In this document: positions 25,230 through 43,367 of the stretch, piece after piece | Layout of the letters: every line of letters starts with the position of its first letter | How positions within the stretch are numbered: the stretch's first letter is position 1 | Source of the DNA: Candidatus Thorarchaeota archaeon | GTDB taxonomy: Archaea > Asgardarchaeota > Thorarchaeia > Thorarchaeales > Thorarchaeaceae | NCBI GenBank assembly: GCA_029855935.1 | Contig: JAGSHN010000020.1 | Coordinates: 1 to 64,000 of the forward strand | DNA length: 64,000 bases | Direction of reading: 5' to 3' | Position numbers and translations under genes: made by a program | The notes under the pieces: generated by a model | Seen by the model: the letters and a program-made list of their open reading frames with translations, nothing else | Database searches by the model: none | What the model was told of the DNA's origin: nothing

Positions 25230-27134
25230 TCACTGAGCGGCGCGTCTTTCCATCATGCGTTCGCGTACCGTGAGGACCGAACAGGCAATCGTCACACCGA
25301 CAGAGCAGACCGAAGCTACGAAAGACACGGGGTTCAGGCCGAGAATCCTCACTGGTTCATAGGTCGCATTGGTGTCTACCGTAGTGCTGAGTGTCGAGGT
25401 CTGAGGCTCGGAGGCATTCTGTTCCGAGTCTCTTGAGGCCAGTCGGAAATAGAGGGGGTTTCGTACCATCTCAAGATACTCGCCCTGAACGTACCCAGAG
25501 ATGTTGTAGGGTCCCGATGTCACCATTGATTCCTCTACTGGATTGGGATTCCACTCGGACCATCCCTCCACACCGAATTCCGTGACTACGTGGCTCGGCA
25601 GAATGGGGATATCTCCGACGGCATGCAGGTTCCAGTACGACTCGCTGTCGAACTCGACTACGACAGTGTACATGTCCTTGGTCCTGGCATAGGTCACTGA
25701 GGCGAGCCTAAACTGGTAGGGGTTGCCCTCAGCAAGTCTGTACGTGTTCAGCGAGATGGCCACGTCTATGGCTGTCAAAGGTGTCCCATCAGTCCACATG
25801 GCATTGTGGACCAGATGAAAGGTCAGTCTCGAATGATTCTCGGGCAGTCTCGGGTCGTCTGCGTGCGTCTCAAAAGCATAGTCTGTGGCAAGCCATAGTA
25901 CCTCCTCGCCTGTGCGATCTCTCTTGAGAAGGCTGTCGTAGAGACCACTCAGAATCTTGTGCGTTGTGTCCGAGGTTATTGTCATATGGTTGAATGAGTG
26001 AAAGTCCTCCGGGATGGCACAACGAAGAACGCCACCGAAGGGACCTCCTCTGTCCTCCCTCAGATGCACACCGAAGACTGTCCACCAGCACAGCGTGCCA
26101 TCAAAGACATCTGTCACGAATCCCTCGAATCGATCTGTCCGATGTGCATAGTAGTAGTCGTTCTCGTAACAGACGACTATGGGACATTCGTACGCAATGA
26201 TCTTCTGCATCTCAATGGCTGCCTCTCGCACCTCGTCGTAGTCAACAGAGTGGAGAAGCTGTTCTCTCCACGAGTCGTATGTGGCGTTCCTGAAGTTGGG
26301 ATAGTTGCAGTACGGCTCGTCGGCATATCCCGACCAGTACTCATACCCCAGCCAGTCGACATCTAGGTCAGAGAAGCTGGTATCTGTAAACAATATGTCG
26401 TAGTTCTTGTGATTGTAGTAGTTCCAGTGAAAGTCCCAATCGGCATAGACACCATTGTGGATGCCAAGAGAACTAAGAGCATCCGATACGAACTGGCAGA
26501 CTGACTCCGCTATCTCCGAGAAGGAACGCTTGATCTGCGTCCCGTTGAGCTCAACAGTCCCGGGTCCATCAGGGCCCGGCCCCTCCAGAAACCCGTCGTT
26601 GTCGGAGTCCACAAAGCCAGCATCAGCGAGCAACGCCCTCGCTGTATCCAAGTCCGAACTGTAGTAGTGATATGCAAGCTTGCTCTCGGCACAGAACGGA
26701 CTCGCCATTGGCACACAGCAATCGAGAGGTTCTGCGAAACCATCCCAGACCTCGCGCACTATCGCATTCTTGTCGAGTGCAAAGGCCAGCGCTCTCCGGA
26801 ACGCAGTGATGTTGTACGGGTACCTCTCCGTGTTGATTGACACATAGCCGTAGCCGTTCCACAGCGTTGATGACAGACTGATCCCCTCAGTTTCAAGCAG
26901 CATACCAACATCAGCGTTGTCAAGCTGAATGTCAATCAGGTCGACATCTCCATCCATCAATGCAAGTATCTGGTCATCATAGCTTGGAATGACCCTGTAC
27001 ACAATCCTGTCAACGTAGGCGCCAGTCCTGTTCATATACGAGGCCTGAGCACTGGTCGGTGGCGGCTGGGCGAAGAAGGTAGCAAGGACTATAACAAAGA
27101 GGACAACGTGTCCGCGTCGGCGCGCACCTCTCAT
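25230..27134 (-). CDS. Family-5 solute-binding protein, circularly permuted, copy 1
   Basis: A 634-residue protein with a signal peptide ending near A-Q-A (about 31) and a C-terminal membrane helix (about 600-622) with a basic tail. The content is that of oligopeptide/dipeptide-type (SBP_bac_5) binding proteins, but the order of segments is swapped. It begins with Y-V-D-R-I-V-Y-R-V-I-P and L-M-D-G-D-V-D-L-I, and I-N-T-E-R-Y-P-Y-N-I-T-A-F-R-R-A-L, which normally come late. Only near residue 360 comes G-G-V-L-R-C-A-I-P, then D-G-T-P-L-T-A-I-D-V, and it ends with T-S-G-P-Y ... Y-V-Q-G-E-Y-L-E-M. No permease or ATPase gene is adjacent. It is next to a close paralogue. Confidence 0.85.
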   Translation of the reverse strand: MRGARRRGHVVLFVIVLATFFAQPPPTSAQASYMNRTGAYVDRIVYRVIPSYDDQILALMDGDVDLIDIQLDNADVGMLLETEGISLSSTLWNGYGYVSINTERYPYNITAFRRALAFALDKNAIVREVWDGFAEPLDCCVPMASPFCAESKLAYHYYSSDLDTARALLADAGFVDSDNDGFLEGPGPDGPGTVELNGTQIKRSFSEIAESVCQFVSDALSSLGIHNGVYADWDFHWNYYNHKNYDILFTDTSFSDLDVDWLGYEYWSGYADEPYCNYPNFRNATYDSWREQLLHSVDYDEVREAAIEMQKIIAYECPIVVCYENDYYYAHRTDRFEGFVTDVFDGTLCWWTVFGVHLREDRGGPFGGVLRCAIPEDFHSFNHMTITSDTTHKILSGLYDSLLKRDRTGEEVLWLATDYAFETHADDPRLPENHSRLTFHLVHNAMWTDGTPLTAIDVAISLNTYRLAEGNPYQFRLASVTYARTKDMYTVVVEFDSESYWNLHAVGDIPILPSHVVTEFGVEGWSEWNPNPVEESMVTSGPYNISGYVQGEYLEMVRNPLYFRLASRDSEQNASEPQTSTLSTTVDTNATYEPVRILGLNPVSFVASVCSVGVTIACSVLTVRERMMERRAAQ

Positions 27135-27189
27135 CCGTACACCCCTGTACGCTGTCAGATATCGTGATACGTCGTATCTGACGGCAACA

Positions 27190-27201
27190 GATAGTTAAGC
27201 A
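27190..27201 (-). promoter_or_regulatory. Conserved TATA-like element of solute-binding protein copy 1
   Basis: On the minus strand GCTTAACTATCT lies about 56 bases upstream of the ATG at 27134. The surrounding 70 bases, including the plus-strand block ATATGGGCCTTGG at 27205-27217, are shared with the leader of copy 2. This conservation outside the coding part supports a promoter. Confidence 0.5.
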
Positions 27202-27345
27202 TTGATATGGGCCTTGGAGCACATTGTGGAGGACTAGTGAACCAACGATCGGCCAGTGGCGGCGACCATCTGTCTGCCGAGACCGTTCTCTGATTGCGCG
27301 GTGGAAGTTGGACGGGCCTCGGTGTACGTAATCAAACTGACCCAA

Positions 27346-29244
27346 TCACTGTGCCGTCCCTCTTGCAGTCATACGTTCGTGCACGATCAGGACAGAACAG
27401 ACAATCGTCACACCGAGAGAGGAGACTGTCACTACGAAGGAGATGGGGTTCAGGCCGAGAATCCTCATCTGTTCGTAGGTCCCATTATTGCCTACCGTAG
27501 TCTCGGATATCGTGGTCTGTGGCTCAGATTTGCTCTGTTCCGGATCTCTCGGGGCCAGACGGAAGTAGAGAGAGTTTCGCCCCATCTCAAGATATTCACC
27601 TTGAACGTACTCGGTGACATTGTACGGTCCCGATGTCACCATTGATTCCTCCACTGGATTGGGATCCCAGTCATACCACTTGTCGACGCCGTATTCCGCA
27701 ACAATATGGCTCGGCAGGATGGGCTTATGAGCGACCGCGTGCAGGTTCCAGTACGACTCGGTGCTGAAGTTCACAACGACCGTGTACAGATCCGTGGCAT
27801 TGACGCGGGTGACTGAGGTGAGGTCTGGCCAGTAGTAGGTGCCCTCGACCATTCTGTACAGATTCAGTGAGAAGGCCACATCTATGGCGGTCAACGGTGT
27901 CCCATCGGTCCACGTGACGTTGCGGACCAGGTGAAATGTCAGTCTGGAATGACCCTCGTGCAGAGTCGGGTCATCTGCATGCGTCTCAAGAACATAGTCC
28001 TCGGCAAGCCATAGGACCTCGTTCGTACCATCTCTCCTGAGAAGGCTGTCATAAAGGCTGGAGAGAATCTTTCTGATAGTGTCTGAGGTCGTGGTCATAA
28101 GATTGAATGAGCGAAGGTCATCAGGGATGGCATAACGAAGGATGCCACCGAAGGGACCGCCTCTGTCCCCCCTCAGACGCACACCAAAGATGTTCCACCA
28201 GCTCAGCGTACCATCGAGGATATCTATCACAAATCCCTCGAATTGGTCCGTCCGATATGCGTAGTAGTGGGTGTTCTCGTAGCAGACAACTATCGGGCAT
28301 TCATAGGCAAGGATCTTCTGCATCTCGATGGCAGCCTGCCGCACCTCGTCATAGTCAATTGAGTGGAGGAGTTGGTCTCTCCACGAGTCGTACGTGGCGT
28401 TCCTGAAGTTGGGAAAGTTGTGGTACGGCTCGTCGGCATATTCCGACCAGTACTCGTACGCCAGCCAGTCAACATCCGTGTCGTAGAATCTGGCGGATGT
28501 GAGGAATATGTCGTAGTTCCTGTCGTAGAGGTGATTCTGCTCGACAAAATAGGGATCGATGGCGTTATCGATGCCGAGAGAACTCAGTGCCTCCGATACG
28601 ATTTCGCAGACCGAGCGCAGTGCCTTCGAGGAGGAGCCTTCAATCAGCGTCCTGCGGAGCTCGACAGTCCCAGGTCCATAGGGTCCCGGCCCCTCAAGAA
28701 GACCATCGTTGTCAGAGTCGACGAAGCCTGCATCAGCGAGCAATGCTCTAGCAGTGTCAAGGTTCGAACTGTAGTAGTGAGACGAGAGCTCGTCCTCAGC
28801 ACAGAACGGACTGACCATCGGCACGCAGCAGTCAAGTGGCTGCGCGTACCCGTTCCAGACCTCACGCACTACCGCTTTCTTGTCGAGTGCATAGGCCAGC
28901 GCCCTGCGAAACGCGGTGATGTTGTACGGATACCTCTCCGTGTTGATCGCCAGATACTCGTAGCCATTTCGAGGCAACGATGACACGCTGATGCCCTCAG
29001 CCTCAAGGGCTGCGCCAATATACGCAGGATTGATTCGGTAGCCAATCAGGTCGATGTCGCCCTCCATCAGAGCCAGCATCTGGTCGTCATAGCTCGGAAT
29101 GATCCGGTACACAATCCTGTCAACGTAAGCACCGACCCTGTCTGTGTGGGATGCCTGAGCACCGACTGGTGGCGGCTGGGCAGAGAACGCGATGAGAACC
29201 ACTACTAGGAGAGCAAGAAGTGTGTGTCGGCGCGTATTCCTCAT
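27346..29244 (-). CDS. Family-5 solute-binding protein, circularly permuted, copy 2
   Basis: A 632-residue close paralogue of the gene just downstream, with the same parts in the same permuted order. The signal peptide ends near G-A-Q-A. The late-type segment comes first (G-A-Y-V-D-R-I-V-Y-R-I-I-P, G-D-I-D-L-I-G), the early-type segment begins near residue 363 (G-G-I-L-R-Y-A-I-P-D-D), and T-S-G-P-Y and Y-F-R-L-A-P come last before the membrane helix. The ATG at 29244 was chosen because the signal peptide starts there; an upstream open stretch to 29373 contains the promoter. Ligand is unknown, likely peptides or similar. It is divergent from the STAND gene at 29478, 233 bases apart. Confidence 0.85.
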   Translation of the reverse strand: MRNTRRHTLLALLVVVLIAFSAQPPPVGAQASHTDRVGAYVDRIVYRIIPSYDDQMLALMEGDIDLIGYRINPAYIGAALEAEGISVSSLPRNGYEYLAINTERYPYNITAFRRALAYALDKKAVVREVWNGYAQPLDCCVPMVSPFCAEDELSSHYYSSNLDTARALLADAGFVDSDNDGLLEGPGPYGPGTVELRRTLIEGSSSKALRSVCEIVSEALSSLGIDNAIDPYFVEQNHLYDRNYDIFLTSARFYDTDVDWLAYEYWSEYADEPYHNFPNFRNATYDSWRDQLLHSIDYDEVRQAAIEMQKILAYECPIVVCYENTHYYAYRTDQFEGFVIDILDGTLSWWNIFGVRLRGDRGGPFGGILRYAIPDDLRSFNLMTTTSDTIRKILSSLYDSLLRRDGTNEVLWLAEDYVLETHADDPTLHEGHSRLTFHLVRNVTWTDGTPLTAIDVAFSLNLYRMVEGTYYWPDLTSVTRVNATDLYTVVVNFSTESYWNLHAVAHKPILPSHIVAEYGVDKWYDWDPNPVEESMVTSGPYNVTEYVQGEYLEMGRNSLYFRLAPRDPEQSKSEPQTTISETTVGNNGTYEQMRILGLNPISFVVTVSSLGVTIVCSVLIVHERMTARGTAQ

Positions 29245-29301
29245 CCAGACACTCCCTGTTCCGCGCAGGCGGGCATCGCGACACGTCACATCTGGCGGGA
29301 A

Positions 29302-29314
29302 CAGATAATAAGCG
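29302..29314 (-). promoter_or_regulatory. Conserved TATA-like element of solute-binding protein copy 2
   Basis: On the minus strand CGCTTATTATCTG is followed after about 58 bases by the ATG at 29244, with GGGAG just before the start. The block is shared with copy 1 and, in weaker form, with the remnant near 32740. It also sits in the divergent leader of the STAND gene, so both genes could respond to one regulator. Confidence 0.5.
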
Positions 29315-29477
29315 TTCATATGGGCCTTGGGGCACAAGACGGATAGCTGGTAAATCACCTGCTGAGAGACCATTGGAAGCCCTCAGCACGATATGCGAGA
29401 TTAGCGCATACCGTCGTGGGAAGACTTACATTGCTATGTGCAGACTCAAGTTCAACCCTAGAGAGGGAGAGTGGCCA

Positions 29478-32411
29478 TTGAGTCCCGGCACCCAGGACGT
29501 ATCAAGACTCAGAGACGCGATTGGGAGGCTTGCGCTGTACGCGGCAAGCGCCATCGGGAAACTGAAAACAGTGGATGTCGCTGGCTTCATAGCCAGCATC
29601 TGTGGTGGTGCTGCACTGGAGATTGGCGGGATTAGTCTAGAGAAGATACTTGGGGCGTGCTGGGGCAAGATAGAGAAATGGGCGAGCAAGAGAGAGCTCG
29701 CAAAAGCTGTGAGGGGCCTGTACCTCTATCGGTCTGCCGACGATATCCTCAGGCAGAGGCTGGATAGGATTCCCGAACTCATTCGACGCAACGCGGACGC
29801 AATTCGAGACCGCCTTGGCAGTGGTGAATCATTCATCGAGATAGTGAAAGATCTACTCGCAACAGCAGACGATATGGAGCTCTCAGAGGACTATGCGGAG
29901 GCGCTTGCAATTGCTCTACAGCGCGGAATATCTCGCGTCATCGCGTCGGGGGTGACCCCGTCTGATGTGTACAGCCTTCCCACGAGTGAAGGGACGAAGA
30001 GTGATCAGATTCTCACAGCCGTGGAACTGCTTCACGCAACGCTCGGATCCCACGCGTTGGCCCGCGAACTCGTTGACCTGAGCTTCAGCACGCGTCTTGA
30101 GAGAATCGAAGTCACTCTGGACCGCGATGCTCTGACAGCAGGACAAGATGAATCGCTCTCGCAGCACAGGGCCGTGACCGAACCAACCTTCTTCAGAAGG
30201 CCGCACCTCAACTGGGTGGACCTCGAGAGAGGATACTACTATGACAGACCCAAGCTCGTAGACAACATTGAAGACAAGTTCGCGAGGGGGAACTGGCTGC
30301 AACTCATTGTGGCCCCCTCAGGTGCCGGCAAGACAACTCTGGGACTCATCCTCGGCTACAGACATGTGACACTCTACGGTGGAATAGCATACTATGTCGA
30401 CCTCGAAGGCAAGAGCGACGTTGACTTGGCGGGAGATGTTGGCGAGATTGCCAAGGCCCTGAAGAGAATCAAAAGAGCAGGGTGGTCGGAGGAGACTAGC
30501 AATGGGGGTTCTTCGGCCAACCACGATTTCGACGCTGTTGAAGAGATCCCAAGCATACTCGTCATAGTCGACAACATTCACCTCAACCTAAAGAGGGTCC
30601 AAGGGCTAGTACAAGGTGTCCGCAGTGCATACTTAGGAACAGACCTTGCCGCCGCTTTGAGCATTCTCCTTCTTGCACGCGTTGGTCACGAGGACCTGCA
30701 GAGGGGTACTGAGCAGATACTCGCAGAGCTGTTCGGCTCCGACCTCGGTGAAGGCATCGTCGAGACTCGTACTCTTGAGAGACGCGATTTCAAAGACGCT
30801 GTCAGAGGGATTGCCGATGTCTTCGCAAGGGAGAGAGATATCGGAGATATCAAGTCATTCGAGCGGGATCTGGTCAGGAAGAGCCAGGAGAGCCTCTGGC
30901 TGCTGTCCTTTGTTCTTCGAGGACTGGAACGAGGCAGGTCAATCGAAGAGATCAACTTGTGCGAGGAGGTCGAGGAGTTCTACTATTGCCCATCCGGTCG
31001 CCCCGATTGCATGAGTTCAGTCTTTCGTCGTGTCCTTGATACACGCGCCAGTGACAATGGACTTGACCTGAAACGACTTGAGCCTGCTGATGCGAGGGGA
31101 GCATTGCGTGCTGTACTGACGACCATTGCGGCACTCGGTACTCTCGGGACACCTGTTCCTGTGCAATACTTGGTCGAGGCTGCACAGGAGCACAAGGTCG
31201 CAAGCGACATCTCGGGACGCTTCCTCGAGGGCAACAAGGCCAGATCCGTTGTGAATGAGATAATAGAACGTCTGCGAAGACTCAATGAGATTGTCGACGG
31301 AGAGATGGCGGGGTGGAATACTGTGAGGCTTCCCCACGCAACTCTTGCAGAAGCAATCTGGAGTTGTGCAGTTGAGAGGGGACGACCTACCATCCTTGTG
31401 GGAGAGTCCCGCGACGACGATACCAGCAATGCCACTGACAAAACGATAGAACGCGTCGTGCTCTCGCTGCTCGACTGGTGTGCAAGATACTACATAGTGG
31501 ATAGGAATAGCGGTCCCGCCCTCTTGCCTCAGGTACTGTGGCAAGCCGTCTTGAAAAACTTTCGCACATCTTATCATCGCGTCGAGAGTCTACCAAAATG
31601 GTTCCGTCAGGGTGAAGAGCCGCAGCAGCAATTGCGGCTGAGAGCCCTTGCCCTTGCCCTTGAGAACCATCCCGAACCATCTATTTTTGCTGGTCTTCTT
31701 CGCTCTCGGCCTTGGCCTCTTCCCGAAGCCTGGCAGTCCTTGTTCAAAGACGCATTTCTCGTTGCCGAGCGTCCCGGTGTCGTACTACACGCGATAGGAT
31801 CCTTCGTCGCAAGAACACCAATGATGATTGCGGCAATAGAGGCACGCATTGATGACCTGTGCGCGGAAATCACTCACCCACAGGAATCAGCAACTGTTCT
31901 TTGGGCCATATCCCCGTTTCCTCAGATTTGCAGGAACGAGAGAGTATTGAACGCAGTCGCTACGGCATTGCGCAGCAGTCCCAAGCCGTGGAGGATTCTC
32001 CACGCCATCGACGACTGGCCCAAGGTCCGTGACGACCCCAAGACCGTCAGCACAGTGAGACAGAGTGCAGTCCCACGCATCGCAGAGGCACTGCGCAGCC
32101 ACCCAGTGCCGTGGTGGATTCTCCACGCCATCAGAAACTGGCCCGAGGTCCGTGACGACCCCAAGATTGTCAGCGCCATCGCAGAGGCACTGCGCAGCGG
32201 TCCCAAGCCGTGGAGGATTCTCCACGTCATGAAGGGCTGGCCGGGAGTTCAAGCCCATCCGGATGTGAGAGCGGCGATAGATGATGTGGCCGAGAAGATC
32301 TGTCAGGCTCGTAGTAGGCAGTGGATTCCGGACATAACATGGGAGAGCATAGTCAAGATTCCCCAGCTCAGGCAGCACGAGTGCATAGAACGCCTTCTGT
32401 CCCGTGACTAG
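29478..32411 (+). CDS. STAND-type P-loop NTPase with C-terminal Trp-containing repeats, copy A
   Basis: A 977-residue protein. Residues 1-65 include Gly/Ala-rich hydrophobic stretches (G-F-I-A-S-I-C-G-G-A-A-L-E-I-G-G). Then a helical region leads to the NTPase core. The Walker A is A-P-S-G-A-G-K-T-T near 280, the Walker B is I-L-V-I-V-D-N-I-H-L near 361, and an L-L-L-A-R-V-G-H strand follows. A helical arm and winged-helix-like region (about 460-640) resemble STAND proteins. The C-terminus has three repeats of I-A-E-A-L-R-S-x-P-x-P-W-x-I-L-H-A-I with W-P-x-V-R-D-D-P-K. STAND proteins are ligand-gated switches in signalling, defence or cell death. TTG start: the paralogue has an in-frame stop just upstream, and GAGGGAGAG precedes it. 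The family is not one I can name. Confidence 0.75.
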   Translation: MSPGTQDVSRLRDAIGRLALYAASAIGKLKTVDVAGFIASICGGAALEIGGISLEKILGACWGKIEKWASKRELAKAVRGLYLYRSADDILRQRLDRIPELIRRNADAIRDRLGSGESFIEIVKDLLATADDMELSEDYAEALAIALQRGISRVIASGVTPSDVYSLPTSEGTKSDQILTAVELLHATLGSHALARELVDLSFSTRLERIEVTLDRDALTAGQDESLSQHRAVTEPTFFRRPHLNWVDLERGYYYDRPKLVDNIEDKFARGNWLQLIVAPSGAGKTTLGLILGYRHVTLYGGIAYYVDLEGKSDVDLAGDVGEIAKALKRIKRAGWSEETSNGGSSANHDFDAVEEIPSILVIVDNIHLNLKRVQGLVQGVRSAYLGTDLAAALSILLLARVGHEDLQRGTEQILAELFGSDLGEGIVETRTLERRDFKDAVRGIADVFARERDIGDIKSFERDLVRKSQESLWLLSFVLRGLERGRSIEEINLCEEVEEFYYCPSGRPDCMSSVFRRVLDTRASDNGLDLKRLEPADARGALRAVLTTIAALGTLGTPVPVQYLVEAAQEHKVASDISGRFLEGNKARSVVNEIIERLRRLNEIVDGEMAGWNTVRLPHATLAEAIWSCAVERGRPTILVGESRDDDTSNATDKTIERVVLSLLDWCARYYIVDRNSGPALLPQVLWQAVLKNFRTSYHRVESLPKWFRQGEEPQQQLRLRALALALENHPEPSIFAGLLRSRPWPLPEAWQSLFKDAFLVAERPGVVLHAIGSFVARTPMMIAAIEARIDDLCAEITHPQESATVLWAISPFPQICRNERVLNAVATALRSSPKPWRILHAIDDWPKVRDDPKTVSTVRQSAVPRIAEALRSHPVPWWILHAIRNWPEVRDDPKIVSAIAEALRSGPKPWRILHVMKGWPGVQAHPDVRAAIDDVAEKICQARSRQWIPDITWESIVKIPQLRQHECIERLLSRD
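31955..32270 (+). repeat. C-terminal Trp repeats of STAND copy A
   Basis: Three units of roughly 100-115 bases, each with the DNA core CTGCGCAGC...CCGTGG and ATTCTCCACGCCATC or a close variant. The cores are nearly identical inside this gene, which points to recent intragenic duplication or conversion. Copy B has one more unit. Confidence 0.75.
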
Positions 32412-32943: not shown

Positions 32944-35900
32944 TTGAGTCCCAGCAGCCAAGACGTGTCGAGGCTCGCAGACCTCATTGCAAGGCTTGCG
33001 CTGTACGCGATAGGCACTGTCCGCGAGAGACTCACACTAGACAACGTTGTGGGGTTCATAAGTGGTATCTGTAGTGGTGCTCCACTGGGGATTGGCGATT
33101 TTGCCCTCTCGAAGACACTCGAGGCGTTCTGGGATAGGATAGAGAGATGGGCGAGGAAGAGAGAGCTTGCGAAGACCATAAGGGGCCTCTACTTGTATCG
33201 ATCTGCCAACAGAGGCGTCAGAAAGAGTCTGGACAAGATTCCGAAGCTGATTCAAAGCAACGCGAGTAGAATTCGGAAGGAACTTGAGGCTGGTCGGTCA
33301 TTCGTCGAGATAGTCGAGGGCCTGCTCGCAGATACAGACGATATCAAGCTTCCCGAGGACTACGCAAAGAAGCTCCCAATCAATCTCCAGCATGCGATAT
33401 TTCGTGTTGTAGCATCGGGAGTCAAACTGCCTGATGTGTACAGCTTTCTCATAGGTGTGGGGATGAAGAATGACGAGATTAGCCAGGCCATAGAACTACT
33501 TCGTGCAACGCTTCAGTCCAATGCACTGGCCCGAGAACTCGTTGACCTGAGCTTCAGCACGCGTCTTGAGAGAATCGAAGTCACTCTCGACTGCGACGCT
33601 CTGACGGCTGAGCAGAATGAATCGCTCTTGCAGGACAGGACCGCACCCGAACCAACCTTCTTCAGAAGGCCGCACCTCAACTGGGTAGACCTCGAGAGAG
33701 GATACTACTATGACAGGTCCAAGCTCGTAGACGACATTGAGGACAAGTTTGCTCAGGGGAGATGGCTCCAACTCATTGTGGCGCCCTCGGGTGCAGGCAA
33801 GACAACTCTGGGACTCATCATCGGCTACAGGCACTTGACACTCTACGGCGGAATAGCATACTATGTCAATCTCGAAGACAGAAGCGATGTTGACCTGGCG
33901 AGAGATGTTGGCGAGATTGCCAAGGCCCTGAAGAGAATCAGAATGACTGCGGGGTCAAGGAGAGGTAATGATGAGGAAGACCTTGCCGACTATGATTCTG
34001 CTTCTGTTGAGGAGATTCCAAGCATACTCGTCATAGTCGACAACATTCACCTCAACCTCGGATTGGTCAAGGACTTGATACGAAGCGTCCGTAGCGCCTA
34101 CGTAGGGACTGACCTTGCCGCCGCATTGAGTATCCTCCTTCTTGCACGTGTTGGTCATGAGGACTTGCAGAGGGGTACTGAGCAGATACTTGCAGAGCTA
34201 TTCGATTCTAGACTCGGTAGGCGCATAGCCGGAACTCATACTCTTGAGAAGCGCGATTTCAAGGACGCTGTCAGAGGGATTGCCGAGGTCTTCGCAAGGG
34301 AGAGAAACATCGGAGATATCAAGTCGTTCGAGCGGGATCTGGTCAGGAGGAGCCAGGAGAGCCTGTGGTTGCTCTCTTTTGTTCTCCGAGGACTGGAAAA
34401 AGGCAGGTCAATCGAAGAGATCGACCTGTGTGAGGAGGTTGAGAAGTTCTACTATTGCGAATTCGAAAGATCAGAGCGCATCAATTCGGTCTTTCATCGT
34501 GTCCTTCATACACGCGCCAGTGAAAATGGACTTGACCTGGGACGACTTGAGCCTGCTGATGCGAGGGGAGCATTGCGTGCTGTACTGACGACCATTGCGG
34601 CACTCGGTACTCTCGGGACACCTATGCCCAAGAAATACTTGATTGAGGCTGCGGAGAGGTACGGAGTGCCAAGCGACATCGCGGGAGGCTTCCTCGAAGG
34701 CGAAGAAGCCAAAGCTGTCGTGGAGGAGATGATAGAACGTCTACGTACACTCAATGAGATTGTTGATGGAGAGATGGCGGGTGAGCAGACCGTCAGGCTT
34801 CCTCACACTACCCTTGCAGAGGTGGTCTGGAGTTGTGCAGTCAAGACAGGACGACCCAGCATCCTTGCAGAAGAGTCCCGCGATGACGATACCAGTATTG
34901 CCGCACACGACATGAGAGAACGGATCGTACTCTCGCTCCTCGACTGGTGTGCAGGATACGGCATAGTCGACAAGAATGGTGGTCCCGGCCTCTTGCCTCA
35001 GGTGATTCGGCAAGCCATCTTGGAGAACTTCTGGACTTGGAACCTTCATGTCATAGCGAACTGGTTCCGTGAGGGGGAGGACTTGCAACGACAACCGCGC
35101 CTGAGTGCTCTTGCAATTGCACTTGAGAACTATCCTGGGCTATCTATTCTTGATCTTCCTCTCTTCTCGTCGGGATTTCTTCCCGATGCATGGGAATCCT
35201 TGTTCAAAGATGCATTCCTCGTTGCCGACCGTCCGGGCCTCGTACTATACGCGATAAAATCGTTCTTTACGAGAAGACCAACGATTTTGGAAGTAGAGGC
35301 ACGCATTGATGACCTGTGCGCGGAAATCGCCCAGACACAGGAATCGAAAACTGTTTTGAGCGCCATATCCCCGTTTCTTGAGATTCGCAAGAACGAGAGA
35401 ATAGTGAATGCAATCGCTATGGTGTTGCGCAGCCATCCTGAGCCGTGGGAGATTCTCTACGTCATCAGCGACTGGTACGATGTCCGTAGCGACCCCAAAA
35501 TTGTCGTCGCCATCTCAGAGGCTATCCTTAGCCATCCTGAGCCATGGAAGATCCTTGAACCCATCAGCCTTGGAATCATCGAGTGGCCCGAGGTCAGTGG
35601 CAATTCCAAGGTCATCAACGCCATCGCAGAGGCACTGCGCAGCCATCCTAGGCCGTGGTGGATTCTCTACGCCATCAGCGACTGGGACGAGGTCCGGGAC
35701 GACCCCGAGATCGATAGCGCAGTGGGAGAGACTGCCATCCCACGCATCGCAGAGGCAATACGCAGCAGTTTCAATCCGTGGTTGATTCTACATCGTATCG
35801 TAGACTGGTCCAAGATTCAAGCGAATCCGGATGTGAGAGCGGCCATAGATGAGGTGGCCGAAACAATCTGCGAGGATCACCGTTGGGGACTGATTCCAGA

Positions 35901-35976
35901 CTGGGTGTGGGAAAACATAGTCAAGATTCCCCAGCTCAGGCAGCACGAGTGCATAAGGCGGTTTCTGTCGGAGTGA
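32944..35976 (+). CDS. STAND-type P-loop NTPase with C-terminal Trp-containing repeats, copy B
   Basis: A 1010-residue paralogue of the gene at 29478, with the same order of parts. A Gly-rich N-terminal segment (V-V-G-F-I-S-G-I-C-S-G-A-P-L-G-I-G) is followed by E-R-W-A-R-K-R-E-L-A-K. The Walker A is A-P-S-G-A-G-K-T-T near 280 and the Walker B is I-L-V-I-V-D-N-I-H-L near 364. A helical signalling region and four C-terminal repeats around P-W-x-I-L-x-x-I-x-x-W follow. The core is much better conserved than the N-terminal and repeat regions, as expected if those read different partners or ligands. The TTG at 32944 is fixed by an in-frame TGA at 32938-32940 and by GGAGGGTGA just upstream. Function is inferred only from the STAND class. 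Confidence 0.75.
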   Translation: MSPSSQDVSRLADLIARLALYAIGTVRERLTLDNVVGFISGICSGAPLGIGDFALSKTLEAFWDRIERWARKRELAKTIRGLYLYRSANRGVRKSLDKIPKLIQSNASRIRKELEAGRSFVEIVEGLLADTDDIKLPEDYAKKLPINLQHAIFRVVASGVKLPDVYSFLIGVGMKNDEISQAIELLRATLQSNALARELVDLSFSTRLERIEVTLDCDALTAEQNESLLQDRTAPEPTFFRRPHLNWVDLERGYYYDRSKLVDDIEDKFAQGRWLQLIVAPSGAGKTTLGLIIGYRHLTLYGGIAYYVNLEDRSDVDLARDVGEIAKALKRIRMTAGSRRGNDEEDLADYDSASVEEIPSILVIVDNIHLNLGLVKDLIRSVRSAYVGTDLAAALSILLLARVGHEDLQRGTEQILAELFDSRLGRRIAGTHTLEKRDFKDAVRGIAEVFARERNIGDIKSFERDLVRRSQESLWLLSFVLRGLEKGRSIEEIDLCEEVEKFYYCEFERSERINSVFHRVLHTRASENGLDLGRLEPADARGALRAVLTTIAALGTLGTPMPKKYLIEAAERYGVPSDIAGGFLEGEEAKAVVEEMIERLRTLNEIVDGEMAGEQTVRLPHTTLAEVVWSCAVKTGRPSILAEESRDDDTSIAAHDMRERIVLSLLDWCAGYGIVDKNGGPGLLPQVIRQAILENFWTWNLHVIANWFREGEDLQRQPRLSALAIALENYPGLSILDLPLFSSGFLPDAWESLFKDAFLVADRPGLVLYAIKSFFTRRPTILEVEARIDDLCAEIAQTQESKTVLSAISPFLEIRKNERIVNAIAMVLRSHPEPWEILYVISDWYDVRSDPKIVVAISEAILSHPEPWKILEPISLGIIEWPEVSGNSKVINAIAEALRSHPRPWWILYAISDWDEVRDDPEIDSAVGETAIPRIAEAIRSSFNPWLILHRIVDWSKIQANPDVRAAIDEVAETICEDHRWGLIPDWVWENIVKIPQLRQHECIRRFLSE
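35405..35870 (+). repeat. C-terminal Trp repeats of STAND copy B
   Basis: Four units of roughly 100-120 bases with cores such as GCGCAGCCATCCT and CCGTGG. The unit number and the loops between cores differ from copy A, while the flanking sequence is alignable. The array therefore changed after the gene duplication. Confidence 0.7.
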
Positions 35977-36120: not shown

Positions 36121-36197
36121 CCACTGCCCAAGGACACTTGGCTACCGCGAGATATGGAGCGAGGGCGGCCAGCCCCCGCGACCCCCGTGGCGCCGAA

Positions 36198-37211: not shown

Positions 37212-37588
37212 TCCCCAGATACCTCCTTCACAATCCTGTCCATCCCATCCGAGAGCTCGCGCCAGATCTTGCTCATCATCCTCACAGCCTTCTCTCCCTC
37301 CCTCGTGAGGGTGTAGTACTTCTTCGGCTTTGCAGGGTCAGTGTAGTCCCACTCCGCCGCCAGAAGTCGCCTCTTCTCAAGACGCCTAAGAATGGGATAG
37401 ACGGTCCCCTGTTCAAGCGACAGAAACGAAGCCTTCTCGTCAAGCTGCTTGACCAGCTCGTAGCCGTAGGCACGACCGCCACTGAGCAGTGCCATCACGG
37501 CAAGCGATACCGCGCCGCGCTTGACCTCCTTCGACCACCGTGTGATCTCCTCCTCGACATTGTCAGACACTCTGGTCACACTCATCAC
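37208..37588 (-). CDS. PadR-family transcriptional regulator
   Basis: A 126-residue winged-helix protein with the PadR layout. The helix A-V-M-A-L-L precedes G-G-R-A-Y-G-Y-E-L-V-K-Q-L. Then L-E-Q-G-T-V-Y-P-I-L-R-R-L-E, with the usual G-T-(L/V)-Y-P-x-L motif, is followed by a wing K-P-K-K-Y-Y-T-L-T-R-E-G and a C-terminal dimer helix. PadR proteins repress promoters by binding palindromes; a small ligand often releases them. Either GTG at 37588 or ATG at 37585 could start translation. Three CATATG half-sites lie directly upstream. The stop overlaps the HAAS gene start by four bases. Confidence 0.9.
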   Translation of the reverse strand: MMSVTRVSDNVEEEITRWSKEVKRGAVSLAVMALLSGGRAYGYELVKQLDEKASFLSLEQGTVYPILRRLEKRRLLAAEWDYTDPAKPKKYYTLTREGEKAVRMMSKIWRELSDGMDRIVKEVSGE

Positions 37589-37592
37589 CCGA

Positions 37593-37628
37593 CATATGGT
37601 AGCACCATATGATGGCTGTCATCATATG
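37593..37628. promoter_or_regulatory. Nested palindromes, probable PadR operator
   Basis: Two perfect inverted repeats share a central CATATG. CATATGGT-AGC-ACCATATG lies at 37593-37611 and CATATGATG-N5-CATCATATG at 37606-37628. The array ends only a few bases before the PadR start codon, so a bound repressor would block initiation. Autoregulation is inferred. Confidence 0.65.
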
Positions 37629-37700
37629 TGGCGAACGACTGTTGGGCCATTCAGATTGGCCTGCGCAGCAGCGACGGATGGGCCCCGTCTGGCTACGGCT

Positions 37701-38774
37701 CTATTCGAATATGCAGCCGCCTGGCCGGCTCGGAGCGGGAGTGCCCTCCTTGATGTGCACGAGGATTCCGTGCGACTTGGAGAACTCGAGAACAGTCTCC
37801 ACGCAACGGGAATAGAATGCCGAGGAGTTGGGATACTCTCTGACCAGCCTATTGTAGTTCCATCTTCCGAAGATAATCTTGTCAACAAATGAGACCTGTT
37901 CGAGAAGGTCCGTTAGTCGCTGCTGGACGATATTAGGAGTCGGATACGGTTCGATACTGACCCAGGTCTTCAGGCCCAAGCCGCTGAGCCTGCGGAGTGA
38001 GGATATCCTGTCTTGAGGAGGTGCCGAGAGCGGTTCATACCGGTCCACGAAACCCTTGTCAAGAGAAACCACCGAGACTCCGTACTCATTGTCCGCAGCG
38101 TATCTCTCATCTGACAGGGAGGGGGGATAGAGGCCCTTGGTGAGCGTGGTCACGCGGACTCCAGCGCGATTCAGCCTCTCGATAATCGCAAGCGTCATGT
38201 CACGGACCCAGGGTATGACCCGGTGGTTGACGGGGTCGTACATAAACGGGTCTGTCGTGAAGGACAGGTGAACAAAGCGGATCTTGCCTCTCAGGCGTGG
38301 GAGCTCCCGGTCAAGCAGCTCCAATGCATTCCCCACAAGGCGCGGATGGAGCCAGTCCTCATATCCGGCGACTCGGCCGTACCGACGAGCCATCATCATT
38401 GCGTAGCAGGGGTACCTGCATCCGTGAGCACATCCCAGCAGGTGGTTTATTGTGTAGTCTCCGTACTCCACCCCGGTCCGGTACATTAGACTCTTGCGTC
38501 GGATTGTGGGAAATGAGTCAAAGTACACAACGTCACGCGATCTGATGTCGGTACGAATTCTACCCTCTGCAATTCGCGGGCGCCGCTCCACGTACACGCG
38601 GCCTTCCCTCTCAAGATATCGAATTGAGGCCTCAACCAGCCTTGGGTCAACACCGGAGGCAACATCCGCAAGGAGGTCTATGACTGGCATATGTTGGCCT
38701 CTGAGCTCCTCCAAGAGAGCCCTCGCCAGTTTCGCTATTTCAGCCTGTCTTGGAACCTGGATCTCCACTGGCAA
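37701..38774 (-). CDS. Radical SAM protein with N-terminal winged-helix-like domain
   Basis: A 357-residue protein. Residues 1-75 are helical with R-Y-L-E-R-E-G-R-V-Y-V-E-R-R-P, like a winged helix. The radical SAM motif near 119 is G-C-A-H-G-C-R-Y-P-C-Y-A, giving C-x3-C-x3-C, one residue longer than the common C-x3-C-x2-C. A T-T-D-P-F-M strand, a T-K-G strand, S-L-D-K-G and V-S-I-E-P-Y-P-T-P follow, as in spore-photoproduct-lyase-like and related archaeal radical SAM proteins. It should cleave S-adenosylmethionine with a 4Fe-4S cluster; the substrate is unknown. The N-terminal domain suggests DNA binding. The stop lies about 110 bases upstream of the PadR gene. Confidence 0.8.
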   Translation of the reverse strand: MPVEIQVPRQAEIAKLARALLEELRGQHMPVIDLLADVASGVDPRLVEASIRYLEREGRVYVERRPRIAEGRIRTDIRSRDVVYFDSFPTIRRKSLMYRTGVEYGDYTINHLLGCAHGCRYPCYAMMMARRYGRVAGYEDWLHPRLVGNALELLDRELPRLRGKIRFVHLSFTTDPFMYDPVNHRVIPWVRDMTLAIIERLNRAGVRVTTLTKGLYPPSLSDERYAADNEYGVSVVSLDKGFVDRYEPLSAPPQDRISSLRRLSGLGLKTWVSIEPYPTPNIVQQRLTDLLEQVSFVDKIIFGRWNYNRLVREYPNSSAFYSRCVETVLEFSKSHGILVHIKEGTPAPSRPGGCIFE

Positions 38775-39146
38775 TTATACCATCACACGCTATCACTTCT
38801 GTATTGTGACACTTACCCTACAAACAGGCCGCCGTTCGGCCAGTGAGTCAACCCGTTTCTCCCACCACGTGTAGTCGTCCACTTGAATCACACCCCTTTT
38901 GGCATCAATATCCGGATTGCCAGTCTGACTGAAAAACCCCTCGTACACACAAGTGAGCAGAAAGTCACGCAATATGTGGAGACAATGGCCTCACCAGCTA
39001 TCTGATATCACAATGGCGCCACAAGTCACAACACGGATTGTTGGAGGCCCGGTCAGGGAACCACCTCCACTGGCACATCGAAAGATGTGGTGCTAGAAGG
39101 CTACAGCTCAGCCTCTTGCCACAGTCTTCCGAGCCTTTCGCTGGTA
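38775..39146. other. 372-base intergenic region, nothing recognised
   Basis: Between the radical SAM gene start and the flavoprotein gene end there is no supported gene, RNA or repeat. It should contain the promoter of the radical SAM gene, but no clear TATA element stands out. Confidence 0.45.
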
Positions 39147-40580
39147 TCAATGGTGGTGCGCGTGCTCTCCCGGCGGCCTATCAGGCGCAAGACGGCCGAC
39201 AGCACGCTGAACCAGCTCCGGCAGGGCCGGATGGATATGTATCGCCCGCAGGATGGGAACGTAAGTGCCATCGCCGCAGTTCATCACGTTGGTGATCTCC
39301 TGAATCAGGATGGGAGCGTGGGGTCCGATGATTGTCGCGCCGAGAATCCGTCCATTCTCAGCATCGCAGACGACCCTAAGAAAGCCCGGAGGATAGCCCA
39401 TCGCAGCACCCTTCGCAGCACCCCCGTAGTCAATCTGGCCGACAAGCAGTCTCCTACCAGACTCGCGGGCCTCCGTCAGCGTCATTCCGACGGTGGCAAT
39501 GGGGGGATACGAGAAGATCGCACGCGGCACAGCGTGGTAGTCCATCGTGAGGAGGTTCGGTTCTCTCCCGCTCTTCTCGGCCTCAAGGACCTCGAGAAAG
39601 TTGTGCCACACGATCGACGACTCCTCGTTCGCAGTATGTCTGAACATATAGCGTCCTATGGCATCACCGAATGCCCAGATGTTCTTCTTTGTTGTCTGGA
39701 AATATTCATCCACGATCACGTAGCCTCTCTTGTCGACCTTGACACCCGTCTTCTCGGGCTTGAAGAGGTCAGCATTGCTCCGCCGGCCTGCTGCGATTAG
39801 GAGGGCCTCGCCGCTCGCCTCGACAGTGTCGCCAGTCGCCTTGTTCCTCGCTCTGACCGTCTTGATATCGCCCCTCTGTGTGACCTCTGTGACCTCATAG
39901 CCCGTGAGAACACGCATCCTCTTTGACAGCTCCTGTCGGAGCAGCTCGGAGACATCAGGGTCCTCCTTCTTCACCAGTCGCGGGTTACGTCCGACAATCG
40001 TCACCTCGGTACCGATGGCGGAGAAGAAGTGAGCGAACTCGACGGCCACAAAGCCACCACCGACAATGACCATTGACCGCGGCTGTTCCTCCAGCTCCAG
40101 CACTGTCTTGTTGGTGAGGTAGTCAACCCTGTCCAGTCCCTTGATCGGCGGGATGACCGGACGCGAGCCTGCGGCGATGAAGACGTAGGGAGCCTTGATG
40201 GTCTCATCTCCGACCCTCATCGTGTAGTCGTCGACGAACTCCCCTGTCACGTGATACCAGTCGAGACCCTCAACGGCGTTGACAGACTCGCCCATCCTCT
40301 TGGACTCGCCCAACGTCTCGTGACGCATCCGAGCCATCAGACCCTTGAAGTCCACCGCCTCGACTCGCGCGCGCAGATTGACGGCCTCGGCGTGGCGCAT
40401 CTCCATTATCACGTCGGCAACATAGGTGAGCATCTTGGTAGGTATGCAGCCTCTGTTCAGACAGGTGCCTCCGAGAGGACCGTTCTCGACAACGGCGACT
40501 CGCATCCCCCTCTCAAATGCTGCAGCCGCCAGGTTCATTCCGGCACCGGAACCGAGAACAATGAGGTCGTAGTCTTTCAT
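39147..40580 (-). CDS. Pyridine nucleotide-disulfide oxidoreductase (dihydrolipoamide dehydrogenase-like)
   Basis: A 477-residue flavoprotein. The N-terminal FAD site is V-L-G-S-G-A-G-M-N-L-A, the redox disulfide is G-G-T-C-L-N-R-G-C-I-P-T-K near 41, and the NAD(P) site is V-G-G-G-F-V-A-V-E-F-A near 170. F-G-D-A-I-G near 300 is the second FAD motif, and a C-terminal H-I-H-P-A-L-P-E supplies the His-Glu pair. This is the dihydrolipoamide dehydrogenase/mercuric reductase branch. No lipoyl-enzyme genes are near, so the disulfide substrate is open. The ATG at 40580 lies about 26 bases from a TATA element at 40606-40612, which implies a leaderless mRNA. Confidence 0.85.
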   Translation of the reverse strand: MKDYDLIVLGSGAGMNLAAAAFERGMRVAVVENGPLGGTCLNRGCIPTKMLTYVADVIMEMRHAEAVNLRARVEAVDFKGLMARMRHETLGESKRMGESVNAVEGLDWYHVTGEFVDDYTMRVGDETIKAPYVFIAAGSRPVIPPIKGLDRVDYLTNKTVLELEEQPRSMVIVGGGFVAVEFAHFFSAIGTEVTIVGRNPRLVKKEDPDVSELLRQELSKRMRVLTGYEVTEVTQRGDIKTVRARNKATGDTVEASGEALLIAAGRRSNADLFKPEKTGVKVDKRGYVIVDEYFQTTKKNIWAFGDAIGRYMFRHTANEESSIVWHNFLEVLEAEKSGREPNLLTMDYHAVPRAIFSYPPIATVGMTLTEARESGRRLLVGQIDYGGAAKGAAMGYPPGFLRVVCDAENGRILGATIIGPHAPILIQEITNVMNCGDGTYVPILRAIHIHPALPELVQRAVGRLAPDRPPGEHAHHH

Positions 40581-40605
40581 AGTGCTCGACAGCAGCAGTA
40601 GACAG

Positions 40606-40612
40606 TATTAAG
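40606..40612. promoter_or_regulatory. Shared TATA element of two divergent genes
   Basis: TATTAAG reads as CTTAATA on the other strand. It is the only TATA candidate between the flavoprotein start (40580, minus) and the GTP cyclohydrolase gene (plus). The spacing gives a leaderless transcript on the minus side and a start near 40634 on the plus side. Confidence 0.45.
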
Positions 40613-40647
40613 ATTGCTTGTTGCGCAGTGTTCTCTCCGCCGACTAT

Positions 40648-41403
40648 GTGCCGAATGCGATATCCTTTATTGACGAGGGCCTGCTGGTGGGTGGTGTGAA
40701 GATTCCACAGAGCTTGGCCGAGAGTCTGATTGAGGCAAGCAGAGATCACATCTGCGAACCGGCTGACTGCTGTGTGAGGCTGGTCGCCATCGCAGACCTG
40801 CCTTCCGAGTTCGGCCATTTCCAGATATGCGGTTTTGTCAGTCCGTGTGATGGCAAAGAGCACACGGCAATCATCAAGGGCAATGTGGTCGACAAGGAGA
40901 ATGTCCTGCTGAGGGTGCACTCCGAGTGTCTCACCGGCGACGTGATGGGAAGCAAGAGATGCGATTGCCGGGACCAGCTCATCACCTCGTTGAGGATGAT
41001 TGAGGAGGAGGGCACGGGCATACTCATCTACCTCCGACAGGAGGGCCGCAATATCGGCCTCACCGAGAAGATCAGGGCGTACTCCCTTCAGGACCAAGGA
41101 GTCGATACGATTGACGCAAATATGCTGCTTGGGCATCAGGCCGACGAGCGCGACTACGGTGTGGCTGCTCATATGCTCCGGACGCTGAGGATACAATCGG
41201 TCCGCCTGCTGACAAACAATCCTGACAAGATCAGGCAGCTCACCAAGCGTGGAGTTGTGATAACGGAGAGAGTTCCGCTCGTCACACCAGTGACAGAGTA
41301 CAACAGATTCTATCTGGAGACCAAGCGGAGCCGTGCAGGGCATCTGCTGGGAGAGGAGGCCGCCCTCACGTCGGTCGAGGACATCTGTGGCGATGGGTGC
41401 TGA
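40648..41403 (+). CDS. ribA: GTP cyclohydrolase II
   Basis: The protein has the GTP cyclohydrolase II core. R-V-H-S-E-C-L-T-G-D precedes S-K-R-C-D-C-R-D-Q-L, with the three zinc cysteines. Y-L-R-Q-E-G-R-N-I-G-L, the substrate loop, is followed by D-A-N-M-L-L-G and L-L-T-N-N-P-D-K. It opens GTP to 2,5-diamino-6-ribosylamino-pyrimidinone phosphate for riboflavin. That is the bacterial-type enzyme; many archaea use the unrelated archaeal enzyme III, so its presence suggests acquisition. There is no DHBP synthase domain fused; about 45 residues before the core are unlike known domains. I prefer the GTG at 40648 because TTG starts at 40618/40621 would lie before the expected transcription start. 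Confidence 0.85.
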   Translation: MPNAISFIDEGLLVGGVKIPQSLAESLIEASRDHICEPADCCVRLVAIADLPSEFGHFQICGFVSPCDGKEHTAIIKGNVVDKENVLLRVHSECLTGDVMGSKRCDCRDQLITSLRMIEEEGTGILIYLRQEGRNIGLTEKIRAYSLQDQGVDTIDANMLLGHQADERDYGVAAHMLRTLRIQSVRLLTNNPDKIRQLTKRGVVITERVPLVTPVTEYNRFYLETKRSRAGHLLGEEAALTSVEDICGDGC

Positions 41404-41474
41404 CCGAAGCCGCTGATACCACCTATGACAAGGTCCCCAGCGGGGGCAGGGAGCAGCGAGAAGACAGAGATCTG

Positions 41475-43367
41475 CTACCTGCGCACGACAAAGTATCCTC
41501 CAATGACTGTGATCACCGATGCCACTGCAACAGCTATGACCAGTGCGACGAGAACGGAGACTCCCGCAGAAGCCCCCTCGCCCGGGGAATACGAGAAGGT
41601 CTCGGTGGTCTCAGTTGGCTGATAGGTGGATGTTACTGTGTACTGTGGCGCTCGAAAGTAGCCGTCGTATCGTACAAGCTGCATGACAGTCCCCGGTTGG
41701 TAGACCGTCACAAAGAACGGCCCGCCTGTGATGAGATCATCCACGAGTGGGTTGGGATCCCACGAGGCATAGTCCTCGGGGGTGAGCGAGGACAGAGTCG
41801 CCTTGGGCAAGATTGGTACCATACCCACATCCACGAGATTCCAATACGAGCCGGGATAGAACTCAACAATGAGAGTGTAGTCCGACGCCTCAAGCGTTGA
41901 CTGGAGACTACGAACCTCATCGTGAAAGTTGCACTCCTCAGCCTCATAGTAGAAGTTGATCGAATAGGACACATCCTCAGCCGTGACTGGGGTGCCATCA
42001 GACCATGTCACGTTCTGAAATAGATGAAAGACGAAGCGGACTGCACCCTCCGGAACGGCCTCGTCATCAGCATGAGTGTAGGTCAGGTAGTCCGTACACA
42101 ACCACGGTACGGGGCTTCCGTCGGGTCCTATCAGGAACAACGAGTCGTAGAGGTCGCGAAAGACAGGCAGAGAGTCGAAAACAGAGGACGCCATTGGGTT
42201 GAAGGTGTCAATATCTGTTCCAATCGCCCATCTGAATGTCCCGCCGAGGGGACCGCCCTGGTCGGTCCTCAGACGGAGGAACCTGTTGGTGATCTCGGTG
42301 AGCGCTCCGTGATTCATCCGACTGACAAGCCCCTCGAAGCGGTTGGTCCTATGGGCGACGTAGGTGTAGGGCTCGAAGAGCGGAATGATTGGGCAGTCCT
42401 GCAGGATGATGGACTGGAGGTCCTCGGCCATTCCGGATACGGCCTCAAAGGACGGGGCGGTCACGAACGAATCGCGTAGAGAGTCGTACACCGCATTGGT
42501 GTAGCCCGCTATGTTCCTGTATCGATCGGTCGCAAGGTCGCCGGAGAGCTCATCGACGTACCAACGTTCGTCGGTTGCAGGAGGACTGGTACTGGGTGTC
42601 GAATACGAACAGGTCCAGATGCGGATGTCAAACCAAGTCCACCACTGAGAGAGGTAGCCAGATGGAGGGCTGTGATCGACCTTCACATCGATACTTATCG
42701 CCTCAAGAGTACCACCCACTGCGTCAGCAGTGTCGTACAAGAAGTCGGTGTCAGACCCCACATCGATTGTAATATGAAACGGGGTCCCATCAGGAGCGTC
42801 TCTGTAGCCGTCGTCATTGGCATCGACGAATCCTGCAGTGTCGAGCAGGTCGTTGGCCTCATCCACGTGTGCCTCATAGTAGGTCCCGCCCAGCCGGTTC
42901 TCGGCTGACAGTGGACTCGTGCGTGGAATGAATGAGTCGATGGGCAGTGCACCGCCATCGATCACTGAGGACACCATAGCATTCTTGTCCAATGCCAGCG
43001 CCACCGCTCTGCGAAAGGCACTGATGTTCAAAGGGTACCTCGTGCAACGGAAGAAGGCGCAGACGTAGAAGTCCATCAGGGCCGGGGCAACATCGACATA
43101 GGAGTGCCCCTGCAGGGTACCGAGGTACTGCGCTCCCAGAGGTATCCCGACGACGTCGACACTGTCGTCCAGTAGCGCTGACACCATCTGGTCGGTCTCA
43201 GCATACTGGCGATAGACGATTCCGTCGACAAATGGTCCAGTCTTGCTGAACTCCTGTGTCGACTGTGAGATGACAACTGTTACTAGAGGTGTCACAAGGA
43301 AACAGACACAAAAGACCAGTACCGACAATTCTCTGACGCTCAATTTCTGATGCCCCTTCTCTCTCAC
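41475..43367 (-). CDS. Family-5 solute-binding protein, circularly permuted, copy 3
   Basis: A 630-residue distant paralogue of the pair at 25230-29244. It has a signal peptide (L-S-V-L-V-F-C-V-C-F-L) and ends in a C-terminal helix (S-V-L-V-A-L-V-I-A-V-A-V-A). Again the normally late part comes first (F-V-D-G-I-V-Y-R near 43, then A-F-R-R-A-V-A-L-A-L-D-K-N-A). The normally early part follows near 372 (G-G-T-F-R-W-A-I-G-T-D-I-D-T-F-N-P-M, D-G-T-P-V-T-A-E-D-V), and T-G-G-P-F comes before the tail. The shared permutation in a diverged copy shows it is an inherited trait and not an assembly error. No transporter genes are adjacent. GTG start at 43367. Confidence 0.85.
   Translation of the reverse strand: MREKGHQKLSVRELSVLVFCVCFLVTPLVTVVISQSTQEFSKTGPFVDGIVYRQYAETDQMVSALLDDSVDVVGIPLGAQYLGTLQGHSYVDVAPALMDFYVCAFFRCTRYPLNISAFRRAVALALDKNAMVSSVIDGGALPIDSFIPRTSPLSAENRLGGTYYEAHVDEANDLLDTAGFVDANDDGYRDAPDGTPFHITIDVGSDTDFLYDTADAVGGTLEAISIDVKVDHSPPSGYLSQWWTWFDIRIWTCSYSTPSTSPPATDERWYVDELSGDLATDRYRNIAGYTNAVYDSLRDSFVTAPSFEAVSGMAEDLQSIILQDCPIIPLFEPYTYVAHRTNRFEGLVSRMNHGALTEITNRFLRLRTDQGGPLGGTFRWAIGTDIDTFNPMASSVFDSLPVFRDLYDSLFLIGPDGSPVPWLCTDYLTYTHADDEAVPEGAVRFVFHLFQNVTWSDGTPVTAEDVSYSINFYYEAEECNFHDEVRSLQSTLEASDYTLIVEFYPGSYWNLVDVGMVPILPKATLSSLTPEDYASWDPNPLVDDLITGGPFFVTVYQPGTVMQLVRYDGYFRAPQYTVTSTYQPTETTETFSYSPGEGASAGVSVLVALVIAVAVASVITVIGGYFVVRR

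Follow-up and report, generated by a model that had tools for sequence, protein, structure and literature searches.

Do three solute-binding protein (SBP) genes of a Thorarchaeote encode circularly permuted proteins and, if so, what do these proteins do and how did they arise? The genes lie in a stretch of 64,000 nucleotides (hereafter, the window) from Candidatus Thorarchaeota archaeon (GCA_029855935.1, contig JAGSHN010000020.1, positions 1 to 64,000), for which an earlier note had claimed that three paralogues of the family-5 SBPs of ATP-binding cassette (ABC) importers carry their conserved blocks in swapped order. Results here bear this out and indicate that the three are very likely extracellular, C-terminally anchored, circularly permuted family-5 (cluster C, OppA/DppA-like) peptide-binding proteins, which would form one flytrap fold, serve OppBCDF importers and have arisen via tandem duplication. 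The PF00496 (SBP_bac_5) profile matched all three open reading frames (ORFs; hmmscan E-values are given below), in each as two separate stretches, with profile positions ~139-364 first in the protein and ~2-148 second, which jointly span most of positions 2-364. For example, residues 82-311 in a longer reading of gene 2 (675 aa) correspond to profile positions 146-363 and the downstream part to 6-141. Named by their order in ordinary proteins, the blocks of the family are N (Pfam ~1-145), Ca (~145-288) and Cb (~288 to the end), so that canonical proteins read N-Ca-Cb, "type A" proteins Ca-Cb-N and "type B" proteins Cb-N-Ca. The window proteins depart from the usual order, and hidden Markov models (HMMs) of the blocks read Ca-Cb-N in all three. 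Their layout is as follows.

25230..27134, reverse strand: gene 1 (P0001, 634 aa), permuted SBP_bac_5; PF00496 E-value 9e-51, two swapped stretches
27045..27134, reverse strand: gene 1 signal-peptide-like segment (aa 1-30; sequence MRGARRRGHVVLFVIVLATFFAQPPPTSAQ)
26058..27029, reverse strand: gene 1 C part (Ca-Cb, aa 36-359), first in the chain, by block HMMs
25431..26054, reverse strand: gene 1 N part (aa 361-568), second in the chain, by block HMMs
25266..25334, reverse strand: gene 1 C-terminal hydrophobic helix (~aa 601-623), by sequence and hydropathy
27346..29244, reverse strand: gene 2 (P0002, 632 aa), permuted SBP_bac_5; PF00496 E-value 4.1e-59, swapped stretches; AlphaFold2 model
29155..29244, reverse strand: gene 2 signal-peptide-like segment (aa 1-30), by sequence
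28168..29139, reverse strand: gene 2 C part (Ca-Cb, aa 36-359), first in the chain, by block HMMs
27541..28167, reverse strand: gene 2 N part (aa 360-568), second in the chain, by block HMMs
27382..27450, reverse strand: gene 2 C-terminal hydrophobic helix (~aa 599-621), by sequence and hydropathy
41475..43367, reverse strand: gene 3 (P0003, 630 aa), permuted SBP_bac_5; PF00496 E-value 5.3e-40, two swapped stretches
43263..43367, reverse strand: gene 3 signal-peptide-like segment (aa 1-35), by sequence
42297..43241, reverse strand: gene 3 C part (aa 43-357), first in the chain, by block HMMs
41607..42263, reverse strand: gene 3 N part (aa 369-587), second in the chain, by block HMMs
41487..41561, reverse strand: gene 3 C-terminal hydrophobic helix (~aa 603-627), by sequence and hydropathy

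The gene boundaries proposed previously were right, apart from an alternative start of gene 2, the frame of which is open from 29373; position 29244, an ATG followed by signal-like sequence, is the plausible start. Alignments with PDB sequences (phmmer) paired P0002 residues 90-355 with TM1223 (4pft) 254-529 and residues 437-548 with 4pft 70-178, and the window proteins showed the identical swap against 1vr5 and AgaA. The A2 profile, derived from nine permuted proteins, matched 105 distinct PDB sequences. Its best stretch always lay on one side of the new junction and never spanned it (60 of the 105 matched sequences), and the permuted order was absent from PDB chains among the matches listed for this profile. 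These swapped profile and PDB matches show that the permuted order is real, far beyond chance. By sequence and by fold, the closest solved relatives are AppA, DppA, OppA, TM1223 and NikA. Both halves of the window proteins belong to the same family as OppA, DppA, AppA and NikA (PF00496, cluster C), with the same predicted fold, but the halves are swapped and a C-terminal membrane anchor is present.

Each window protein consists of a signal-like segment, Ca, Cb, N, a Thr/Ser/Pro-rich stalk and a hydrophobic helix with a basic end. All three open with 'G.[YF]VD.IVYR' right after the hydrophobic signal-like segment, in agreement with the single common cut that had been claimed. The same cut is common to dozens of proteins in one starred clade of the tree, which supports the further proposal that it predates the divergence of the three paralogues. 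PDB alignments place this type A cut at OppA ~214-218, just past the 'R-N-x-x-Y' strand. OppA is composed of domains I (residues 1-44, 169-270 and 487-517), II (45-168) and III (271-486), which puts the type A cut in lobe 1, together with the old termini; these are therefore easy to join. The old ends are joined by a linker of ~20 residues (median 21), similar to linkers within canonical proteins. A hydrophobic N-terminal segment, counted here as an export signal, was found by hydropathy in 63 of 64 type A rows.

Structure prediction pointed to a single SBP-type fold. An AlphaFold2 model of P0002, based on 27 rows, in which eleven canonical proteins were represented by their N and C parts in rows of their own, reached a predicted local distance difference test score (pLDDT) of 78 and a predicted template modelling score (pTM) of 0.77; most 10-residue blocks scored >80 in residues 41-330 and 371-560, and the signal, stalk and tail scored low. 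The 50 best Foldseek hits in the PDB include AppA (1.5e-17), TM1223, DppA, NikA and OppA, with ~290-343 aligned columns on targets of 474-560 residues and target template modelling (TM) scores of <=0.52. Partial coverage and low TM scores are what a sequential aligner, able to follow one segment only, would give for a permutation, and the result is consistent with a complete permuted fold, short of proof. The first half does not form a different fold in the model, nor was a canonical order preceded by an extra N-terminal domain seen, these being the outcomes that the earlier note had named as speaking against permutation.

Is the rearrangement peculiar to the window? The source genome (~97% complete) encodes nine family-5 SBPs, of which seven are permuted and two canonical; both canonical ones adjoin OppB/C/D/F. 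We searched sampled genomes of Asgard archaea, Thermoplasmatota and Chloroflexota, mostly draft metagenome assemblies. Few candidates were scored per genome and results refer to the matches listed, hence absence is weak evidence. On a doubled profile (N-Ca-Cb-N-Ca), canonical proteins match at ~12-519, type A at ~198-720 and type B at ~352-873. This profile and the block HMMs, a split-profile check of the kind suggested beforehand, gave the permuted order in many relatives. The A2 profile spans the entire protein in nearly all searched genomes of f1, the family of the window's Thorarchaeota. Four further Asgard families hold type A, namely f9 and f20 (doubled profile) and f8 and f21 (block HMMs and split matches). 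As an example, the chromosome-level sequence of Candidatus Thorarchaeota archaeon bin27 (CP070761.1) carries two permuted genes in tandem. A general presence in archaea was rejected: for 243 Thermoplasmatota genomes, none of the matches listed fell in a type A or type B range. A search of viral contigs for additional rows found none. An array at one locus (L148, G013:C61) comprises five permuted SBP genes in a row, gene ends included, all on a single strand.

A second permutation, type B, is cut near Pfam 288, between Ca and Cb, ~145-155 residues beyond the type A cut and, by OppA numbering, on lobe 2. It occurs in Asgard families f1, f5, f9, f12, f14, f16, f18, f20 and f22, and its members are L100, L117, L121, L125-L131, L136, L137, L186, L190, L192, L164 and L229. 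In Chloroflexota it is rare; the 251 genomes sampled contained two clear cases by block order, L164 (= L228) and L229, plus a few candidates; a restriction of permutation to Asgards is thereby rejected for type B. Type B proteins (e.g., L125, L126, L100, L117 and L164) resemble type A in being permuted members of the same family, mostly C-anchored and mostly from Asgards, but differ in their cut and sit on separate tree branches.

The clearest illustration comes from the window's own family, in which type B L125 (585 aa, G013) can be aligned with canonical L049 (597 aa): L125 213-553 corresponds to L049 43-391 (62% identity), L125 39-207 to L049 392-558 (51%) and L125 553-585, the membrane tail, to L049 567-597 (58%). 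The canonical joint of L049 ('..GIRNFPGVAP' followed directly by 'TDELEFDCMSLSWDDISV..') is divided in L125 between a new C-terminus ('..GVREFPGVAP-PAGDVDLILIIG..') and a new N-terminus ('..TPELSYPLWVLSWDDISV..'), and the old ends are joined as '..FNPQTPIYMYDEDHTSGDMEFVMAYGSDIGELNP..'. Judged from these alignments, the body alone is permuted and the signal peptide and tail are kept in place. The pair is the best proof of permutation, and its ancestral order may be either of the two. Canonical L049 and L133 share 51-63% block identity with L125, and the canonical Thorarchaeal L049, L059, L061, L064 and L133 have a C-terminal membrane tail like the permuted proteins, but retain N-Ca-Cb order. 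Both halves match one canonical protein for type B L125/L126/L117 and for the L188/L193-related group. Together with the profile order, the PDB alignments and the confident model of one SBP fold, these close canonical relatives of type B support the claim of circular permutation.

To assess the number of events, we built a tree with 67 re-ordered proteins (460 columns, IQ-TREE, LG+C20 with posterior mean site frequencies, PMSF), with the caveats that the pattern was already apparent when groups were named and that branches are long. The three orders need 10 changes on this tree (7 for type B and 3 for type A; minimum possible, 2), and starred branches force at least 5 for type B and at least 3 for type A. 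A single origin of type B as one clade was rejected (approximately unbiased test, p-AU 1.7e-63), which we read as many origins or reversions. Evidence against type A as one clade is weak (p-AU 0.037); the N-part tree groups 12 of 13 type A rows (support 0.72), and the C-part tree places two canonical rows inside the type A group. Type A may hence have one or a few origins, and its nesting with canonical proteins could also mean reversion.

Genome context bears on function. In G010, G020 and G023 (96-97% complete), the doubled profile detected type A only (9, 7 and 7 matches, respectively, including fragments), and each genome has a cluster with OppD, OppF, OppC and OppB in which a type A protein is the sole SBP, an operon context of the OppA/DppA/AppA/NikA kind. 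The L225 cluster is an example:

3901-5043, reverse strand: OppF
4977-6005, reverse strand: OppD
7108-8760, forward strand: OppC
8910-9977, forward strand: OppB
10167-12074, forward strand: type A SBP

On contig C27 of the source genome, 84 bases separate a type A gene from an OppC gene; OppB and OppDF are encoded no more than 22 kb away, and a search near this locus found no canonical SBP. As the only SBPs in three genomes, and located within opp clusters, type A proteins are most likely the working SBPs of Opp/Dpp-type ABC importers. In E. coli DppABCDF, a scoop of DppB inserts between the DppA lobes (PMC12136057), and the permutation would leave both lobes free for a DppB-type scoop. An OppC at L019:10883-12502 (reverse strand), and similar ones, are 520-550 aa long with OppC_N and BPD_transp_1 ~290 residues apart, which points to a sizeable additional (extracellular) segment, possibly a docking site for the permuted SBP.

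We propose that the old N- and C-termini, both in lobe 1 of OppA, became joined via the ~20-residue linker as new termini opened in a lobe-1 loop at OppA ~214-218. The permuted chain would fold into one two-lobed Venus flytrap, bind peptides and pass them to Opp/Dpp-type OppBCDF importers; these are few and would probably be shared among the many orphan copies, those of the window included. The most likely route would be a tandem duplication of the SBP coding region within a single gene, after which the outer parts were lost, with the signal peptide and membrane tail retained throughout. A 1,038-aa ORF at L134:1693-4806 (reverse strand) carries a head-to-tail pair of family-5 SBP domains (N-Ca-Cb-N-Ca...). 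It is a possible model of a duplication intermediate, but parts of it read N/X and its subfamily is a different one, and it therefore shows no more than that such fusions may occur.

Several observations weigh against this account. AlphaFold2 run on five permuted sequences alone gave a useless model (pLDDT 39), and the canonical half-sequences in the larger alignment help each half fold. No opp permease was found among the identified genes near the three window SBP genes. Finally, trees of the separate halves disagree on a canonical relative for the main type A clade, the nearest canonical rows being different and distant; the N and C parts may therefore be of hybrid origin in this clade.

The missing permease leaves room for most orphan copies, the window's three included, to be surface peptide receptors or scavengers for signalling or storage instead of importer subunits, in keeping with the zinc-ribbon-like tails of L096 and L131. 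We consider this unlikely, given that complete opp clusters contain paralogues from the same clade, which in three genomes are the sole SBPs, and that five DppA-type SBPs share one DppBCDF in Pseudomonas aeruginosa (PMC4206461). The discordant half trees would fit type A being a fusion of the C part and N part of two different SBP genes, and the TpMglB-2 authors considered the same explanation for that protein (PMC4990184). All distances approach saturation, however, and in the type B pairs L125/L049 and L125/L064 both halves are nearest the same canonical relative, making such a fusion rather improbable. A binding unit built from two chains, in which the N part pairs with a neighbour's C part as a domain-swapped dimer or as a chain on the surface, could draw on the tandem arrays, on side-by-side membrane anchoring and on the capacity, in principle, of a permuted chain to exchange segments. 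It would be quite surprising, since the monomer model is confident and the joining linkers are of canonical-like length, so that nothing forces a segment swap. Errors in the assembly, in reading the frame or in placing the profile, which draft metagenome assemblies might invite, are a practically negligible explanation, as stop-free frames occur in most genomes of f1 and in chromosome-level CP070761.1, independent methods agree and the order recurs across genomes.

A broader proposal can be advanced only tentatively: the Asgard family-5 SBP scaffold may have undergone repeated permutation, with two favoured cut points and possible reversions, because a relocated anchored terminus on a C-tethered flytrap would alter peptide presentation to the importer, and permuted forms may have fully replaced canonical ones in some Thorarchaeota. 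The earlier note had suggested that gain of the C-terminal helix goes with the permutation. This was not supported as specific: hydropathy detects the helix in most permuted rows (type A, 58 of 64; type B, 14 of 16) but likewise in 23 of the 74 canonical ones. It is therefore older than, or independent of, the permutation, and is rejected as a product specific to it. Of the rows scored as lacking it, two are truncated at the edge of the fetched stretch and two are long-tailed ORFs; in one row each of type A and type B, more sequence follows the helix beyond the test window; one type A row falls just below the hydropathy cut, and the Chloroflexota protein lacks a tail. Permutations nonetheless cluster in C-anchored lineages. 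The permuted L096 and L131 have a cysteine-rich, zinc-ribbon-like tail past the membrane helix, which suggests a cytoplasmic partner or signal.

The nearest precedent, TpMglB-2 (Tp0684; "Type Ic / Cluster Bc"), is a sugar-binding SBP of an ABC importer that is permuted in nature yet retains ligand binding, and most organisms with a similar protein tether it, leading its authors to propose that the topology may be an adaptation to anchoring (PMC4990184). The Asgard case fits this idea without testing it. The two share natural permutation, an ABC-importer role (a probable one in Asgards) and tethering, but TpMglB-2 is a bacterial, glucose-binding protein of Type I/cluster B with another cut, whereas the Asgard sequence and fold matches are to family 5. 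Natural permutation of an ABC-importer SBP was previously found described for this one class only, and a full-text literature search, with most subscription journals outside its reach, turned up no description of a family-5 SBP in permuted order. The family and the kind of rearrangement are thus known; recurrent permutation of this family, and its being the sole form in some genomes, are unreported as far as searched. Permuted proteins are annotated as plain SBP_bac_5 because local profile matches ignore order, and the permutation is therefore easily overlooked in databases. Here, several permutations, at two sites, affect a textbook family throughout a large group of archaea relevant to eukaryote origins, and close canonical and permuted relatives (L049/L125) make the route and effect of permutation directly testable. 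The clade-wide trait, the second permutation and the genomes with only permuted SBPs in their opp operons all go beyond the earlier note.

Other genes in the window include two similar large proteins between the SBP genes (29220-32411 and 32944-35976, forward strand), which carry repeated segments at their C-terminal ends and give weak STAND NTPase-like matches, and a third protein, NTPase/HEAT, at 51861-55313. A HerA-type ATPase gene (PF01935; 23249-25114, forward strand) overlaps that of an upstream 644-aa protein (21340-23274, forward strand), which has no Pfam match and is possibly a NurA-like partner. Divergent from SBP gene 3, the gene at 43554-45326 (forward strand) encodes a surface protein that has a C-terminal membrane helix and repeats of beta-sandwich-like segments (weak PKD-like match). 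A Ras-family small GTPase domain (residues 331-501) lies at the C-terminal end of a 514-aa protein at 50184-51728 (reverse strand), the long N-terminal part of which is of no recognised kind.

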